The position numbers were made by a program, and so were the translations under genes. From Kineococcus sp. NBC_00420 (GTDB taxonomy: Bacteria; Actinomycetota; Actinomycetes; Actinomycetales; Kineococcaceae): a stretch of 64,000 nt of DNA. Each line of letters begins with the position of its first letter. Position 1 is the stretch's first letter. The stretch is from NCBI RefSeq assembly GCF_036021035.1, contig NZ_CP107930.1, forward strand, positions 4,984,006 to 5,048,005, read 5' to 3'. Under the pieces are notes generated by a model. The model was given only the letters and a program-made list of their open reading frames with translations. It did no database searches and was not told where the DNA came from. Of this stretch, positions 4,388 through 36,946 are shown piece after piece.

Positions 4388-5485
4388 GTGAGCCGTCCCC
4401 GCACCCCGCTCGCCGTCGGCGCGATCGCCGCCCTGCTGCTCGCCGGCTGCGGAGGTTCCGACGACGGCGCCGTCGACGGTGTCTCCACCCCCTCGGCGAC
4501 CAAGGGTTCCGCGGTCTCGGCGGAACGGTGCAAGGAGAACGAGGCCGCGGGGAAGATCACCTACATCACGGGTTTCCAGTACCAGGCCTCGGCCGGCATC
4601 CTCGATCCCATCGCGGCGAAGGCGCTGGGCTACTTCGACGCCCTCTGCCTCGACGTCGAGATCCAGCCGGGCACCGGTGAGACCGCGCAGAACGCCCAGC
4701 TCGTCGCGGCCGGCACGGCGCAGATCTCCTCCATCGCCGGCAACGGCGACGTCCTGGTGAACGTCGCCAACGGCGTCGACGTGCAGGCCGTGGCGATGTT
4801 CGGCCACGTCCCGGTGGCGACGCTCATGACCGAACCCGACATCACCGACCTCAAGCAGCTCGAGGGCACGACGCTGGGACAGAAGGGCGCGTTGCCGGTC
4901 ACCATCGAGGCCATGCTGCGCGCCGCGGGCGTCGACGTCTCGAAGATCACCCAGGTCGAGGTCGGCTACGACCCGACGGTGCTGGTCCGCGGACAGGTCC
5001 AGTCGCTGACCGGTTACAAGTCCAACGAACCGCTGACCCTGCAGGCCAAGGGGGAGAAGGTGAAGCTCTGGAACCCCGAGGACTACGGGGTTCCCGGCTC
5101 CATCGCGACGACCATCGTCAACCCGGCGTTCCTGAAGGACCACCGCAGCGCCGTCGAGGACTTCCTGCGGGCCCAGCTCAAGGCCTACGCCTACTGCGAG
5201 GACGACGCCGGCGAGTGCGTCGCCGACGCCGCGGAACTCTCCCAGGCCGGTTACGACACCGACCACAACGTCCAGGTGTGGCAGACGGAGTCCAAGCTCG
5301 TCGACGACTCGTTGCCGCAGGGCCAGGTGCTTGGTCAGATCGACGACACCGCCGTCCGGACCGAGGGGGACTTCCTCGTGCGGATGGGTCAGATCCCCGC
5401 GGTGCCGGACCTGAGCACCCTCGTCGTGCCCGACCTCGTGACCTCGCTCTACGCCGACGGTCAGCTCGTCTGGCCCGCACCGTGA
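4388..5485 (+). CDS. ABC transporter substrate-binding lipoprotein
   Basis: 365 residues, starting at GTG 4388 with a short signal peptide and a lipobox LAGC whose Cys is residue 21, so the mature protein is lipid-anchored on the outer face of the membrane. The rest resembles the NMT1/ThiY and SsuA solute-binding fold: YITGFQYQASAGILDPIAAKALGYF near the N terminus, followed by a conserved TGETAQNAQLVAAGTAQ region. It contains extra Cys residues (YCEDDAGECVAD) that could form a disulfide. Its stop overlaps the start of the RutA-like gene, which ties substrate capture directly to the oxygenase. Confidence 0.9.
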   Translation: MSRPRTPLAVGAIAALLLAGCGGSDDGAVDGVSTPSATKGSAVSAERCKENEAAGKITYITGFQYQASAGILDPIAAKALGYFDALCLDVEIQPGTGETAQNAQLVAAGTAQISSIAGNGDVLVNVANGVDVQAVAMFGHVPVATLMTEPDITDLKQLEGTTLGQKGALPVTIEAMLRAAGVDVSKITQVEVGYDPTVLVRGQVQSLTGYKSNEPLTLQAKGEKVKLWNPEDYGVPGSIATTIVNPAFLKDHRSAVEDFLRAQLKAYAYCEDDAGECVADAAELSQAGYDTDHNVQVWQTESKLVDDSLPQGQVLGQIDDTAVRTEGDFLVRMGQIPAVPDLSTLVVPDLVTSLYADGQLVWPAP

Positions 5486-6546
5486 ACGCCCCCACGACGG
5501 CGCCGACGGAGTTCGGCATCTTCCTGCCCATCGGCAACGGGGGCTGGATCATGTCCGACACGGCGCCGCACCCGCAGGCGACCTACGAGCACAACCGCGA
5601 GGCCGCGCTGGCGGCGGAACGCATCGGCCTCGACTTCGTGATGTCGATGGCGAAGTGGCGAGGTTACGGCGGTCGGACCGACCACTGGGGCGAGACCCTG
5701 GAGTCGATGACGATGATGTCGGCGCTGGCCGAGGCCACGCACCGGGTGAAGGTCTGGGCGACCGTCCACACCAACCTGTTCCACCCCGCGCTGGTGGCGA
5801 AGATGTTCGCCACCCTCGACCAGGTCTCCGGCGGGCGCTGCGGCATGAACGTCGTCGTGGGCGCCTACGAGCACGAGTTCTCCCAGATGGGGCAGTGGCG
5901 CGCGGACTTCAGCCACGACGACCGCTACCGCTACACCGAGGAGTGGATCGACCTCGTCGAACGGTTGTGGACGGAGGACTCCGTCACCGCCCGCGGGGAG
6001 TTCTTCACCCTCGACGACTGCCAGTCCCGCCCCCACCCCGCCCAGCGGCCGACGCTCATCGCGGCCGGCCGTTCGGCGGCCGGGATGCGGTTCCAGGCGG
6101 CCCACTGCGACGGGTCCTTCCTCACCGCCGAGGACCTGCCGGGCTTGCGGGCGGCCAGCCGCGACGTCAAGGCGATGGCCGCGCTGCGGGGTCGCTCGAT
6201 CAAGACCTACGCCATGCTCACCGTCGTGCTGGCCGAGACCGACGCGGCCGCGCAGGCGCGGTTCCGCGAGTACGGGCGCGGGTACGACGCCGAGGCCATC
6301 ACGAACATGAAGCTGTCCTGGGGTCTGCCGCTGGAACGTGCGATGTCCATGACGGCCGGGGACGAGGCGCACGAGGCGTTCCAGACCGCCGTCGTCGTGG
6401 GTGGTCCGGACTCCGTCGTGCGCCAGATCCAGGAGGTGGTGGGGGAGACCGGCCTCGACGGCATGATGCTCATCTTCCCCGACTACCTGCCGGACCTGGC
6501 CGCGTTCGGCGAGCAGGTGCTGCCCGCGTTGCGGGCAGGGGCGTGA
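5482..6546 (+). CDS. RutA-like LLM-class flavin-dependent monooxygenase
   Basis: 354 residues of the luciferase-like (LLM) flavin monooxygenase fold. The N-terminal FGIFLPIGNGGWIMS, then AKWRGYGGRTDHWGETLES and LDQVSGGRCGMNVVVGAYEHEFSQMG, closely follow the pattern of RutA, which uses FMNH2 and O2 to open the uracil ring. The C-terminal half diverges, so the true substrate could be another pyrimidine or a related N-heterocycle. The GTG start at 5482 overlaps the lipoprotein stop (GTGA), and the stop overlaps the next gene likewise, so all five genes look translationally coupled. No flavin reductase (RutF) gene is in the window. Confidence 0.85.
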   Translation: MNAPTTAPTEFGIFLPIGNGGWIMSDTAPHPQATYEHNREAALAAERIGLDFVMSMAKWRGYGGRTDHWGETLESMTMMSALAEATHRVKVWATVHTNLFHPALVAKMFATLDQVSGGRCGMNVVVGAYEHEFSQMGQWRADFSHDDRYRYTEEWIDLVERLWTEDSVTARGEFFTLDDCQSRPHPAQRPTLIAAGRSAAGMRFQAAHCDGSFLTAEDLPGLRAASRDVKAMAALRGRSIKTYAMLTVVLAETDAAAQARFREYGRGYDAEAITNMKLSWGLPLERAMSMTAGDEAHEAFQTAVVVGGPDSVVRQIQEVVGETGLDGMMLIFPDYLPDLAAFGEQVLPALRAGA

Positions 6547-7178
6547 GCGACCCGCGGCTGGAACTCCTGCGCGACCTCCCAGGGGCGCTGCTGGTCGTCG
6601 ACGTACAGCGCTCCTTCGCCGATCCGGAGGTCCTGGCCCACCTGTCCGAGACCGCCCGCGCCGACGTCGCCGCCGCGGTGCTGGGGGTCCGGGCCGCGAT
6701 CGACCTGGCCCGGGCCGGGGGGACGGCCGTCGTCTGGCTGCGGCTGCGGGTCCCGCCGGACAACCCGTGGCCGGCGTCGAACTGGTTCCGCGGTCGGGCC
6801 CCGGACGACCCGTGGCCGACCGAGTGGGAACCCTGCGTCGAGGGCACCGCCGGCATCGAGTGGTACGCCGTGGAACCCCTCGACGAAGAACTCGTCCTCG
6901 ACAAGCGGACCTACGACGGTTTCGCCGGGACCGGGTTGGCGGAGACGTTGCACGGGTGGGGGACCGGGTGGGTCGCGGTCACCGGGCTCACCGGCGACTG
7001 CTGCGTCCTGGAGACGGCCGGGTCCGCCTTCACCCACGGTTTCCGGACCCTCGTGGTGGCCGACGCCACCGCCTCCCACGACCGGGCCACCCACGACGCG
7101 GCCCTGCGGGTGCTGGCCGAGCACAGCGCGGTGGTCGTGGACCTCGCCGAGATCGAGGACCTGCTGCTCACGCCCTGA
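6543..7178 (+). CDS. Isochorismatase-family cysteine hydrolase, RutB-like
   Basis: 211 residues with the isochorismatase-like hydrolase fold. The N-terminal ALLVVDVQRSFADP holds the catalytic Asp. The catalytic Cys lies in VTGLTGDCCVLETAGSAF, and the base Lys in LVLDKRTYDGFAGTGL. RutB of this family hydrolyses ureidoacrylate or its peroxy form made by RutA. Placement directly after a RutA-like gene, with a four-base overlap, supports the same two-step ring opening. It converges on the anti-sigma gene and overlaps it by 11 bases. Confidence 0.85.
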   Translation: MSDPRLELLRDLPGALLVVDVQRSFADPEVLAHLSETARADVAAAVLGVRAAIDLARAGGTAVVWLRLRVPPDNPWPASNWFRGRAPDDPWPTEWEPCVEGTAGIEWYAVEPLDEELVLDKRTYDGFAGTGLAETLHGWGTGWVAVTGLTGDCCVLETAGSAFTHGFRTLVVADATASHDRATHDAALRVLAEHSAVVVDLAEIEDLLLTP

Positions 7179-7962
7179 CGGTCAACGTCCCCCGCAGGAC
7201 GCTGTCGGAGGAGTGACCGGGGTTCCCGTCGAGGGGTTCCCGGGAGACGTCGACGACGTCGAAACGGCCGAGGTCCAGGTCGGCGGGCAGCGTCACCGAC
7301 ATGGCCATGCCCGCCCCGGCGCCCGGGTCCGGGCTGAGGAAGCCCAACGGCACCAGGCCCCCGTCGGCGTCGAGCAGCCACGCCTCGAGGAAACCGTCGG
7401 GCACCGCCGCCACCCCGGAGATCCGCAGTTCCAGACGTCGGCTCCCGCCGGCCTCGGTGACGTCGGCGCTGCCGCTGCCGGACCCGGCCAGCGGTTCCAG
7501 CGCGGCGGTGGACACGACGGCCTGCGCGGGCGCCGCGGTCGTGGGTTCCGCCGGGCCGGAGAGCGCCCTCGTCCCCAGCGCACCGACGCCCAGGCCGACG
7601 AGGGCGGCCGCGGCCACCGGCACCCACCGCGGCCGGCGGAGCGGACGCGGGGTGTCCGCCCGGCGCAGGGGGACGACGACCGGTGCGCTCGCCGTGGGGG
7701 CACCGGAGCCGGCGGGGTCGATGCCGAGCTCGCGGGCGACGTCCTCCCAGGTCCCGGCCGGGACCGGGACGGGGGTCACCGACTCCTGCGACCGGGCCGA
7801 GCCGACCACGCGGCTGATCTCGGCGACCTCGGTGCGACAGGTGGCGCAGGCCTCGAGGTGGGCGTGCACCTCCGGTGCGACCTCCTCCCCCAGGGCGAGC
7901 AGCACGACGACGTCCTCGGTGAGGTGTTCCGCCGCCGTCGGGGGCGTCTCATCGATCGGCAC
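7168..7962 (-). CDS. Anti-sigma factor with zinc-binding N terminus and RskA-type C-terminal domain
   Basis: 264 residues. The N terminus has an HLEACATC (HX3CX2C, residues 35-42) zinc-binding anti-sigma motif. One membrane helix lies at about 113-130, and the extracytoplasmic part carries the RskA signature of an LRISGVAAVP...EAWLLDADGGLVPLG strand pair. It should hold the neighbouring ECF sigma factor at the membrane until proteolysis releases it. The start overlaps the end of the sigma gene by 14 bases, as usual for such pairs. Confidence 0.9.
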   Translation of the reverse strand: MPIDETPPTAAEHLTEDVVVLLALGEEVAPEVHAHLEACATCRTEVAEISRVVGSARSQESVTPVPVPAGTWEDVARELGIDPAGSGAPTASAPVVVPLRRADTPRPLRRPRWVPVAAAALVGLGVGALGTRALSGPAEPTTAAPAQAVVSTAALEPLAGSGSGSADVTEAGGSRRLELRISGVAAVPDGFLEAWLLDADGGLVPLGFLSPDPGAGAGMAMSVTLPADLDLGRFDVVDVSREPLDGNPGHSSDSVLRGTLTVRA

Positions 7963-8551
7963 TGTCGTCCTCCAGGCGCGATCGCAACCGGCGCAGGGAC
8001 CGCCGGAGGTGGCTCTTCACGGTACCCACCGGCAGGCCCGTGCGTTCGGCGATCTGGACCTGGGTGAGGTCCTCGAAGAACGCGAGCCGGACGACGGTGC
8101 GCTGCGGTTCCCCGAGGCCGTCGACCTCCGCGAGCAGGACGAGGCGGTCGGTGGCCACGTCCTGCGGTGCGGCCTCCAGCACGACGGTGCTGTCGCCGCC
8201 GCGCAGCAGCTCCGGGTCGGTGACGACCTCGGGACGGTAGCGGGTCGCCAGCGCGTCGGCGATGCGGTGCCGGGCGATACCCACGAGCCACGCCGGGAAC
8301 GAGGCCGCGGAGGGGTCGAAGCGTTCCCGCGACCGCCACGCCGACACGAACACGTTCTGCACGACGTCCTGCGCGTCGGCCTCGTCGAGACGACGCCGCG
8401 CGAGCCCGTTGACGAGCGGGGCCCACCGCTCGAACGCCTCGCGCAGCCCGCGTTCGTCTCCCGCAGCGACGGCCCGGCCGACCGCGGCGTCGTCCCACGA
8501 CGCAGGGTCGGTCCAGTCCGCCGCCGGCGACGGGCTCGGCCGGGGGCTCAC
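7949..8551 (-). CDS. ECF RNA polymerase sigma factor (SigK/RskA-type pair)
   Basis: About 200 residues with region 2 (LDEADAQDVVQNVFVSAWRSRERFD, DAQDVVQ being the core contact) and region 4 (LTQVQIAERTGLPVGTVKSHL) helix-turn-helix. The start is uncertain: GTG codons at 8551, 8557 and 8560 are all in frame, and an open frame continues further upstream over the sortase region without support. 8551 is chosen because the Pro/Ser-rich tail that follows is a plausible N terminus. Partner is the RskA-like protein immediately downstream. Likely targets include the exported proteins encoded upstream, by analogy to SigK regulons. Confidence 0.85.
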   Translation of the reverse strand: MSPRPSPSPAADWTDPASWDDAAVGRAVAAGDERGLREAFERWAPLVNGLARRRLDEADAQDVVQNVFVSAWRSRERFDPSAASFPAWLVGIARHRIADALATRYRPEVVTDPELLRGGDSTVVLEAAPQDVATDRLVLLAEVDGLGEPQRTVVRLAFFEDLTQVQIAERTGLPVGTVKSHLRRSLRRLRSRLEDDSADR

Positions 8552-23706: not shown

Positions 23707-23722
23707 GGCGGCAGGCCGTTCA

Positions 23723-23868
23723 GCTCGTGTGGGAGAGACCCTGGTCGGGGAAGAGTCCGACCGCGGCGCCGAAGGGGCAACATCCCCGGAACCTCTCAGG
23801 CGGAAGGACCACGCGAGATCAGGCCGCTCTGAAGCACGTCCGCGCCCGCGCGGGTGGGTGACAGACGG
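23723..23868 (+). promoter_or_regulatory. Glycine riboswitch (single aptamer with ghost-aptamer stem) upstream of gcvP
   Basis: The core glycine aptamer is recognisable: GGGAGAGACC (23731-23740), GGCGCCGAAGGGGCAA (23765-23780), AACCTCTCAGGC (23790-23801) and GGAAGGACC, closed by a CTCG/CGAG stem. The second aptamer expected in tandem riboswitches is missing. In its place are CCGCTCTG (23824-23831) and CAGACGG (23862-23868), which pair with one bulged C and look like the P1 stem of a ghost aptamer. Downstream, GGAGGT (23870-23875) can pair with ACCTCC just before the gcvP ribosome site, a possible translational switch. Glycine should turn gcvP on. Confidence 0.88.
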
Positions 23869-34142: not shown

Positions 34143-35198
34143 GTGACCGGCTCTCAGATGCGTCTGGACTCCCTGGCAGACCGCAACCCGCGGGTACCCC
34201 CGCAGCAGCTGGTCGCGGAGCTGGTGCCGCCGCCGCGCTTCGCCGACGTCCGCTTCGCCAGCTACGTCCCCGCCCCCGAGCACCCCAGCCAGGCCGAGGC
34301 CGTCGCCGGGATGAGCGCGTTCGGGGAGCGCGTCCTCGCGGGCGGCGCGCCGGCGAAGGGTCTGGCGGGCCTCTTCAAGCGCAAGGCCGCGCCGAGCGGT
34401 GCGCCGGGGATGTACCTCGACGGTGGCTTCGGGGTCGGCAAGACCCACCTGCTCTCCTCGCTGTACCACCAGGTCGTCACCGAGGGTGGCCGCACCGCCG
34501 CCTACGGCACCTTCGTCGAGTACACCAACCTCGTCGGTGCACTGGGCTTCCTGCCCGCCGTCGAGGCGCTGGCGCCGAACGCCCTGGTCTGCATCGACGA
34601 GTTCGAGCTCGACGACCCGGGTGACACCGTCCTGATGTCGCGGTTGATGCGCGAACTCGTCGACCGCGGGGTGAAGCTGGCGGCGACGTCGAACACGCTG
34701 CCGGGGGCCCTGGGCGAGGGGCGCTTCGCCGCGCAGGACTTCCAGCGCGAGATCCAGGCCCTGGCCGGGCAGTTCGACGTGCAGCGCGTCGACGGCGAGG
34801 ACTACCGCCACCGCGGCTTGCAGCCCGCGCCCGCGCCGCTGTCCGACGAGGAGGTCGAACGCGCCGCCGCCGCCCGTCCGGGCGCGACGTTCGACGACTT
34901 CACGACCGTGCTGAACCACCTGGCCCAGGTCCACCCCAGCCGCTACGGCGCGATGGTCGGCCAGACCACGGCGGTCTGCCTGCGCGGGGTCAGCACCGTC
35001 ACCGACCAGATGGTGGGTCTGCGCCTCGTCGTCCTCGCCGACCGGCTCTACGACCGGGACATCCCCGTCGTCGCGTCCGGAGTTCCCTTCGACGCCGTGT
35101 TCACCGACGAGCTGATCAACGGCGGGTACCGCAAGAAGTACCTGCGCGCGGTGTCGCGGTTGTCAGCCCTCGCGCGTGAGGGTGCGGCGCCGGCCTGA
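34143..35198 (+). CDS. zapE: Cell division protein ZapE (AFG1-like ATPase)
   Basis: 351 residues, the size of ZapE. Walker [17 protein letters not shown], Walker [14 protein letters not shown] and the AFG1 motif [16 protein letters not shown]. In E. coli it binds FtsZ during division under stress; eukaryotic AFG1 assists mitochondrial proteolysis. GTG at 34143 gives the normal N terminus; an open frame extends to 34029 but crosses the promoter. Converges on the Ni/Co transporter gene and overlaps it by 36 bases. Confidence 0.92.
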
Positions 35199-36245
35199 GC
35201 GGCGCCACCACACCAGCGCGACCGCCCACACGAGCAGGAACAGCCCCGCGACGGCGTACCCGACGTACTCCGTGTCGAGGCCGGAGATCCACGTCGCGGC
35301 GCCGCCGAGACCGAGTTCGTCGTGCAGGACCGACACCAGCTGGATCGTGCCGATGGTCAGCGCGACGACCACCGAGGCCCCCGTCACGACGCCGTTGTAG
35401 GTCAGGCGCCGCAACGGGTTCGCCAGGGCCCAGTCGTAGGCGAGGTTCATGAAGGCGCCGTCGAGGGTGTCGAACAGGCTCATGCCCGCGGCGAACAGGA
35501 CCGGGAGCACGAGGACCGCGTACCAGGGCAGGGTCACGGCCGCCGTCCCGGCGAGCACGAGCAGCGCGACCTCCGTCGCCGTGTCGAAACCCAGACCCAT
35601 GAGCAACCCGGCCGGGTAGATCTGGCGGGGGGAGCGGATCCTCGCGGTGAAACCCCGCAGCAACCGGGCCACCGCACCGTCGAGGGCGAGTCGCTGGTGC
35701 AGGGCCGCGTCGTCGAGTTCCCCGCGACGGCGCATCCGGGCCGTGCGCAGGATCCCGACCAGCGCGGCGAGGTTCACCAGCCCGATGACCCAGAGGAAGA
35801 TCCCCGCGGCGCTCGTGCCGAACACCCCGAGGGCGTCGTGCGCCGCGCTGCCCTCGGTGACGAGACCGGAGGCGAACCTCGCGCCCGTCGCCACGACGAC
35901 GGCCATCGCGAACACAACGCTGGAGTGGCCCAGGGAGAACCAGAAACCCACCGACAGCGGACGCTGGCCGTCCCCCGTGAGCTTGCGCGTGGTTCCGTCG
36001 ATGACGGCGATGTGGTCGGCGTCGAAGGCGTGCCGCACCCCGAACACGTAGGCCGTCAGTCCCAGCCCCCAGCCGAAGACCTGCTCGCCCACGGAGAACT
36101 CGTGGGGTACGACGAGGAGACCCAGGACACCCCACCCGAGCACGTGCAACCCCGCGACGACGGCCAGCAGACGCAGCAGGCGTCGGGTGTCGAGGCCGCT
36201 CCAGGAGCGGCCGGCGGCGCGGGACGGCTCGGACAGGACGGACAC
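35163..36245 (-). CDS. NiCoT-family nickel/cobalt transporter
   Basis: 360 residues, seven or eight membrane helices. The signature HAFDADHIAVIDGTTRK (HX4DH) is intact, as is LGFDTATEVALLVLAG in helix five; both bind Ni2+ or Co2+. GTG at 36245 follows a GAGGAG site. The start of transcription is overlapped by a TTGCAA-N5-TGGCAA box (36257-36283 region), like those bound by the nickel regulator Nur, which favours nickel over cobalt. No urease or hydrogenase genes lie nearby. Confidence 0.92.
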   Translation of the reverse strand: MSVLSEPSRAAGRSWSGLDTRRLLRLLAVVAGLHVLGWGVLGLLVVPHEFSVGEQVFGWGLGLTAYVFGVRHAFDADHIAVIDGTTRKLTGDGQRPLSVGFWFSLGHSSVVFAMAVVVATGARFASGLVTEGSAAHDALGVFGTSAAGIFLWVIGLVNLAALVGILRTARMRRRGELDDAALHQRLALDGAVARLLRGFTARIRSPRQIYPAGLLMGLGFDTATEVALLVLAGTAAVTLPWYAVLVLPVLFAAGMSLFDTLDGAFMNLAYDWALANPLRRLTYNGVVTGASVVVALTIGTIQLVSVLHDELGLGGAATWISGLDTEYVGYAVAGLFLLVWAVALVWWRRSGRRRTLTREG

Positions 36246-36256
36246 GCTCACTCCTC

Positions 36257-36283
36257 GCTTGTTGCAAGTCACTGGCAACAAGC
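36257..36283 (-). promoter_or_regulatory. Nur-like operator upstream of the Ni/Co transporter
   Basis: A 9-bp perfect inverted repeat, GCTTGTTGC-N9-GCAACAAGC. Inside it, TTGCAA-GTCAC-TGGCAA matches the known Nur box (tTGCaa-N5-ttGCAA) at 11 of 12 positions. It lies 12-38 bases before the GTG, where a repressor would block transcription or its start. Confidence 0.6.
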
Positions 36284-36298
36284 AGGGAGCCTAACGGG

Positions 36299-36946
36299 TC
36301 AGTCCCACTCGGTGGGCAGGGACGGGTCCAGGTGGTGGGCCATCATCCGTTCCAGCTCCCAGCGGTTGATGCGCCGCTGCGACAGCTCCGGCAACTCGTC
36401 CAGGCCGAACCAGCCGACGTCCAGGGTCTCGAGCTCGCTCGCCGCGACGCGGTCCCCGGAGACGGTGCAGAGGAAGTACAGGTGGAAGACGCTCACCGGC
36501 ATCGGCGGCTGCTTGCCGCGGGCGTCCCGTTCCCAGACGCCCACGACCTTGACCACCTCGACGGGGTAGCCCGTCTCCTCCAGCACCTCGCGGACCGCCG
36601 CCTGAGCCGGGCGGTCACCCGGGTCCGCCCACCCTCCCGGCATCGACCAGAGCCCGTCGCTGCGCTCGCGCAGCAGCAGGAACCGGCCCTGGTCGTCGAT
36701 GACCCCCGCCCGGACGTCGACCTTGGGCGTCGCGTAGCCCGCGTCGGTGTCCAGGAGCGCCCGCAGGACGTCGCGGGGCGAGGTGGAGACCGCGGCCAGC
36801 AGATCCGCCGCGAGCTCGGTCAGCTCCCGGTAGCGGGCCGCGTCGTAGTCCTTGGCGGGGTCGCCGAGCGCGAAGGTCAACCCGTCCTGGGCCAGGGCCG
36901 CGATGCGGACGGCGGCCGTGCGGACCAGGTCGGCGGGTTCGCTCAC
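36299..36946 (-). CDS. NUDIX hydrolase with N-terminal helical domain
   Basis: 215 residues. The NUDIX box lies at GWADPGDRPAQAAVREVLEETGYPVEVV (GX5EX7REVXEEXGX shape with the key REVLEETG). The N-terminal 60 residues are helical, as in the NUDIX_4-type pyrophosphatases. Substrate unknown. GTG at 36946 is six bases from TAGCGT, which lies in the last codons of treZ, so it may be transcribed separately from the trehalose operon. Confidence 0.85.
   Translation of the reverse strand: MSEPADLVRTAAVRIAALAQDGLTFALGDPAKDYDAARYRELTELAADLLAAVSTSPRDVLRALLDTDAGYATPKVDVRAGVIDDQGRFLLLRERSDGLWSMPGGWADPGDRPAQAAVREVLEETGYPVEVVKVVGVWERDARGKQPPMPVSVFHLYFLCTVSGDRVAASELETLDVGWFGLDELPELSQRRINRWELERMMAHHLDPSLPTEWD

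Follow-up and report, generated by a model that had tools for sequence, protein, structure and literature searches.

The window analysed here comprises 64 kb of Kineococcus sp. NBC_00420 (G000:C1:4984006-5048005, from a single-contig genome of 5.43 Mb) and contains, on its minus strand, a gene encoding a nicT-like Ni/Co importer of the NiCoT family (PF03824; positions 35163..36245). The transporter scores well above the cut-off of the Pfam NicO model (PF03824; E 1.7e-73, 247.9 bits against 27.7) and reaches 441.8 bits with the NCBIfam NicT model (NF052500), under that model's cut-off of 450; a sequence search of the PDB gave no relative. Because a GAGGAG sits five nucleotides upstream of the GTG at 36245, this codon is the likelier start of nicT, over the in-frame alternative GTG at 36251. 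Upstream on the same strand lies a NUDIX hydrolase gene (36299..36946), which is not thought to be part of the nicT unit, and on the other side of nicT is a gene that we take, from the open reading frames of the window, to encode an AFG1/ZapE-like ATPase. Elsewhere in the window, a glycine riboswitch aptamer is found on the plus strand (23720-23821).

The gap between the NUDIX gene and nicT measures 47–53 nt, depending on the start chosen, and holds a 27-bp inverted repeat, GCTTGTTGCAAGTCACTGGCAACAAGC (36257..36283, with no strand assigned), our operator candidate. The repeat begins 15 nt beyond the end of the NUDIX gene, pairs at 12 of 13 arm positions, has its core (TGTTGC-N9-GCAACA) at 36260-36280, and extends in a looser form to 36251-36289 (arms of 19 nt, complementarity 84%). 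Seven nucleotides ahead of the TGTTGC stands a putative −10 hexamer, TAGGCT (36288..36293, minus strand), at which a sigma-70 scan that also requires a −35 element found no promoter. The Nur box of Streptomyces has the consensus tTGCaa-N5-ttGCAA, as given in the available part of PMC3919588. The repeat carries exact TTGC and GCAA half-sites at a spacing of N9, and matches TTGCAA-N5-TTGCAA at 11 of 12 positions (TTGCAA-N5-TGGCAA, 36262-36278). The initial annotation had described just such a repeat before the nicT-like gene, with the same degree of likeness to a Nur box, and we confirm that observation.

How rare the repeat appears depends on what is counted. With up to two mismatches allowed, TTGCAA-N5-TTGCAA matches only at 36262-36278 in the 64-kb window (shuffled windows gave a mean of 0.08, with at least one match in 8 of 100), and across the 5.43-Mb genome TTGCNA-N5-TNGCAA has this one exact place and four others with one mismatch. 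Dyads of 27 bp and equal quality, by comparison, number two in the window and occur at least once in 19 of 60 dinucleotide shuffles, and we therefore dropped the dyad by itself as proof. Since the dyad alone is not rare, the case beyond chance rests on its conservation across the genus.

We compared 12 genomes: that of the window, 10 congeners, and one from another genus of the same family (G011). Within the genus, 10 of 11 genomes have a nicT gene and G009 gave no match; G006 has an additional, more distant copy (L101, 73% identical) that carries no dyad. TGTYGC-N9-GCRACA precedes nicT in all 10 nicT-bearing genomes of the genus, the window's own included, and at each orthologous copy has a TANNNT hexamer on one side and the start codon on the other. 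The hexamer stands 7 nt (seven promoters) or 4 nt (three promoters) before the TGTYGC and the dyad 14–37 nt from the start codon; a steady distance to the hexamer combined with a variable distance to the start fits a promoter operator. The same motif occurs before a second kind of importer gene, fecCD, in two congeners. The resulting 12 sites vary in their spacer and do not keep the AA/TT found on the inner side of the Streptomyces half-sites; the motif of the genus is TGTYGC-N9-GCRACA, with arms extended outward and inner bases free.

This motif is not enriched overall, the 12 genomes holding 24 sites against 41 for the reversed control, and 12 of the 24 stand at nicT (10) or fecCD (2). The strict form, TGTTGC-N9-GCAACA, occurs nine times in the same genomes, eight times at nicT and once at fecCD. 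We take the other 12 sites to be chance occurrences; of the seven that we inspected, three fall within a plausible coding frame. A 27-bp matrix trained on 10 sites, excluding that of the window and the one most closely related to it, scored the window site at 31.0 and the next place in the 64 kb at 10.6; five mononucleotide shuffles yielded at most 13.9.

A conserved dyad might also work as RNA, either as a hairpin at the 5' end of the nicT mRNA or as a terminator of the NUDIX gene. The predicted hairpin folds at −20.5 kcal/mol (z −2.36; 3 of 200 shuffles equally stable) and one site (L093) has matching changes in both arms, but at two of the 12 sites (L099 and L156) a C stands against an A in the core, breaking the RNA pair while both half-sites still fit. 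The loop, moreover, is not conserved, no terminator-like site with a T-run was found, and in G009, where the dyad stands before fecCD, the upstream gene is oppositely oriented and its transcript cannot end at the dyad. We consider such a role very improbable, and favor the reading of the dyad as a DNA operator.

The two sites away from nicT precede a FecCD-type ABC importer (G004:C5:392939 and G009:C43:211183). In G009, the genome of the genus that has no nicT match, its one site lies ahead of permease, binding-protein and ATPase genes, as identified by Pfam on the G009 proteins (L174, about 5184-8297); in G004 (L170) a permease gene is followed by a binding-protein gene, within which the extracted stretch ends. 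A TANNNT hexamer precedes the TGTYGC by 7 nt in G004 and is absent at the expected place in G009, so that 11 of the 12 sites (the 10 at nicT and that of G004) have the hexamer directly ahead of the dyad. The binding protein is close to PDB entry 5CR9 (3e-102), an entry whose name refers to an iron-hydroxamate component; for the three FecCD proteins NCBIfam offers at best, below cut-off, names for putative F420-0 transport; we know of no experimental test behind either name. A plasmid search for the binding protein gave no match. We regard the FecCD-type system as a candidate nickel or nickel-chelate importer, which would provide a substrate guess for a group whose closest database entries carry the two names given above. 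The G009 locus also holds a SAM-IV riboswitch (L174:4945-5054, minus strand), whose orientation is opposite to that of the FecCD operon and which lies before a methionine importer pair that is presumably MetQ/MetN-like.

We then placed the nicT genes among their relatives; a scan of named genomes supplied homologues of NicT, of which the best 80 of 567 were used (51–59% identical in the best segment). A cobalamin riboswitch lies upstream, on the strand of the gene, in 39 of these 80 and is lacking in 41; opposite-strand matches (a further one in L010, and that in L075) were left out of the count. The core TTGC-N9-GCAA, scored at 7 or more of 8 bases within 300 nt upstream, was present in 19 of the 41 genes without a riboswitch and in none of the 39 with one, so that within the best 80 of 567 the two never occur together. 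The corresponding figures were 8/41 and 1/39 for a reversed core, 4/41 and 2/39 for a swapped core, and 2/41 and 0/39 for the true core inside the gene. Because the control patterns are also few in the riboswitch group, the 0/39 by itself means little; the excess (19/41 against 8/41 and 4/41) lies in the riboswitch-less group. We read these counts as indicating that two kinds of control may split the NicT family, one through B12 (cobalt) and the other through a Nur-type box (nickel). As for the Nur-type label that the initial annotation gave to the repeat of the window, its TTGC-N9-GCAA core is thus shared with 19 of 41 riboswitch-less NicT genes in this set, and the inner AA/TT part of the likeness is not kept in the genus.

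In a NicT tree built from the same best 80 of 567 by a quick method, the 19 genes with a box all fall in one clade of 36 rows (100*) that contains no riboswitch rows. The nicT of the genus lies outside this clade, on a long branch whose exact neighbours are weakly supported (44), which argues against simple inheritance of box and gene together from a Streptomyces-like source and points to a separate acquisition of one or the other. Of the 43 homologues nearest to the nicT of the genus (L010-L052, within the best 80 of 567), 34 are under riboswitch control. None of the 12 nicT loci or two fecCD loci of our genome set has a cobalamin riboswitch.

A Nur homologue, on which the first reading of the repeat depends, is present. 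The genome has four places of the Fur family, of which three are other Fur paralogues and one is a Nur-like gene (L003; G000:C1:1766413-1766829; orthologues L118-L128). Searched against the PDB, its product matches S. coelicolor Nur (3EYY) first, at 5.2e-27, followed by PerR at 5.6e-10. The gene is flanked downstream by a YgfZ-like gene with a GCV_T domain and upstream by a heme-binding barrel gene; S. coelicolor nur, too, is located together with ygfZ according to the available portion of PMC4531530. The Nur-like protein was matched (E ≤1.7e-35) in 11 of the 12 genomes. In the twelfth, G008, the match ends in the same ygfZ-like neighbour and the contig (C266, 25819 bases) ends one base further on, about 100 nt short of the nur-like gene; as the contig ends beside the gene's place, we dropped G008 as a counter-example. 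In a tree, 3EYY groups with the 11 Nur-like proteins with support that is not strong (86/60).

In 3EYY numbering, we take the three-histidine Ni site of Nur to be H70, H72 and H126, and its four-histidine M site to be H33, H86, H88 and H90. Residues H33, H81, E84, H85, H88, H90, E101 and H126 are present in all 11 Nur-like proteins. The Ni site so defined is incomplete, with H126 in 11/11, H70 in 0/11 (R in 10, S in one) and H72 in 1/11 (L128; Q, R or A in the others). The M site retains H33, H88 and H90 in 11/11 and H86 in 0/11, where it is replaced by G or A; H81, E84 and H85 adjoin this position in all 11. One Nonomuraea homologue (n = 1) keeps both H70 and H72, and its residue 86 is not His. 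By their residues, these Nur-like proteins are not plain Nur, raising the question of what lets a sensor of the Nur lineage function when two nickel-site histidines are missing. The accessible part of PMC7055735 describes two metal sites in Nur, the M site with four histidines and the Ni site with three, and cautions that crystallisation may have produced the Ni site as an artefact; if so, the loss of H70 and H72 weighs less.

This altered metal site, together with the three further Fur paralogues of the genome and the unconserved inner AA/TT of the motif, leads one to consider a repressor other than the Nur-like protein (one of those paralogues or a dimer of the TetR/GntR type) whose operator resembles the Nur core partly by accident. 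The outer TG/CA of the genus motif, likewise, is missing from the Nur consensus in the portion of PMC3919588 available to us. The TTGC half-site and its N9 spacing, however, are those of the Nur consensus and of the 19 actinobacterial NicT genes noted above (among the best 80 of 567), and among PDB entries our candidate is far closer to Nur than to any other. The recognised neighbours of nicT (the NUDIX gene and the presumed AFG1/ZapE-like ATPase) include no regulator. A different repressor is in our judgement unlikely, and the Nur-lineage protein is the regulator that we prefer.

Additional boxes in the same genome, which the initial annotation had envisaged, were not seen at the places searched. 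With the 27-bp matrix, nothing exceeded the shuffle level (maximum 13.9) at the two Fe/Mn-SOD places, at the nur-like gene or at the other three Fur genes, and the best score in the 15-kb urease region was 11.1. A search for SodN gave no match, and since it gave none in any control genome either, it does not establish that SodN is absent. We also tried to define a wider regulon with TTGC-N9-GCAA, and abandoned this pattern as too loose (19 places in the genome, against 69 for the reversed control).

The metal, which had been guessed from the box, is not readable from the box alone, because two histidines taken to belong to the nickel site are missing from the Nur-like protein; nickel is favored mainly because genes for B12 synthesis are absent and urease is present. 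CobN was matched in none of the 12 genomes and CbiC likewise in none, while the same searches gave matches in 5 and 7, respectively, of 14 control genomes, so that de novo B12 synthesis looks absent. Cobalt serves mainly as a component of vitamin B12 (in the part of PMC2667541 available). Urease is found in 10 of the 12 genomes, including that of the window and G009, and gave no match in G002 and G003, both of which have nicT and the dyad. The nearest homologues of nicT, mostly riboswitch-controlled (34/43 among the best 80 of 567), its position outside the Nur-box clade, and the altered metal site of the regulator would all suit a real unit that responds to cobalt (or to both metals) and a transporter that feeds cobalt metabolism. 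Against this stand the missing CobN and CbiC (12/12 genomes, with positive controls), the lack of a cobalamin riboswitch at the 12 nicT and two fecCD loci, and urease in 10 of 12 genomes; we find such a cobalt unit improbable, and nickel a good deal likelier than cobalt as the metal of the nicT unit.

Taken at the level of sequence, the dyad probably serves as operator for a repressor that depends on metal; the likeliest candidate is the Nur-lineage Fur protein, through which nickel would shut off nicT. We infer that the Nur-like protein binds the dyad, that its metal is nickel and that the effect is repression. When nickel is sufficient, a metal-loaded Nur-like dimer would occupy TGTTGC-N9-GCAACA; bound directly behind the putative −10 hexamer, it should cover the transcription start and keep nicT off, and when nickel is scarce it would release the dyad. 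In congeners the same repressor may also, or instead, govern the FecCD-type ABC importer. More tentatively, and as a possibility that we would not yet back, this could be a re-tuned Nur lineage that no longer has the nickel site of His70/His72, relies instead on a new, invariant cluster of His33, His81, Glu84, His85, His88 and His90, recognizes an outward-extended box, controls a regulon of importers only, and includes a FecCD system that imports nickel or a nickel chelate in place of NicT.

Nur, the Nur box and the control of nickel uptake by Nur are already known. We found no report of NiCoT genes with a Nur box, or of Nur in Kineococcus, in a search outside of which most subscription journals lie. 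The system of the genus shares with S. coelicolor Nur the TTGC-N9-GCAA core (PMC3919588), a Fur-family gene that, in the genome of the window, stands beside a ygfZ-like gene (PMC4531530) and, by prediction, a nickel-type importer as target with its box at the promoter (PMC3919588, PMC7055735), each as described in the accessible parts of those papers. It differs from S. coelicolor Nur (sodF, nikABCDE) in a box lengthened at the outer ends of its arms (TGTYGC/GCRACA) and variable at the inner aa/tt, in its predicted targets (NiCoT and FecCD-type importers), in a protein without His70 and, in 10 of 11 cases, without His72, and in that no box was seen at the two Fe/Mn-SOD places of the genome of the window. 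Riboswitch-controlled actinobacterial NiCoT genes encode a homologous transporter (51–59% identity in the best segment, best 80 of 567), whereas the loci of the genus have no riboswitch. The NikR box differs from the Nur box. NikR is similarly a metal-loaded repressor of an importer but belongs to a separate protein family, as stated in the available part of PMC7055735.

The sequence of this NiCoT importer did not reveal its metal; the importer is now linked to nickel-type control, and the presence of a cobalamin riboswitch or of a Nur-type box may serve as a simple test for guessing the metal of an actinobacterial NicT. Predicted Ni- and Co-specific NiCoTs are scattered over the family tree and preference often tracks genomic location, according to the part of PMC2667541 available; regulatory context would be a clue of the same kind.

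The genome from another genus of the family (G011) has a nicT relative (L100, 55% identical) without the dyad of the genus. A Streptomyces-like Nur box matching 7 of 8 core bases (CTGC-N9-GCAA), CTGCGACTAAGTTGCAA, lies 173 nt upstream of that nicT match, in a 660-nt scan where chance could produce it. In the NicT tree, this transporter falls within the Nur-box clade.
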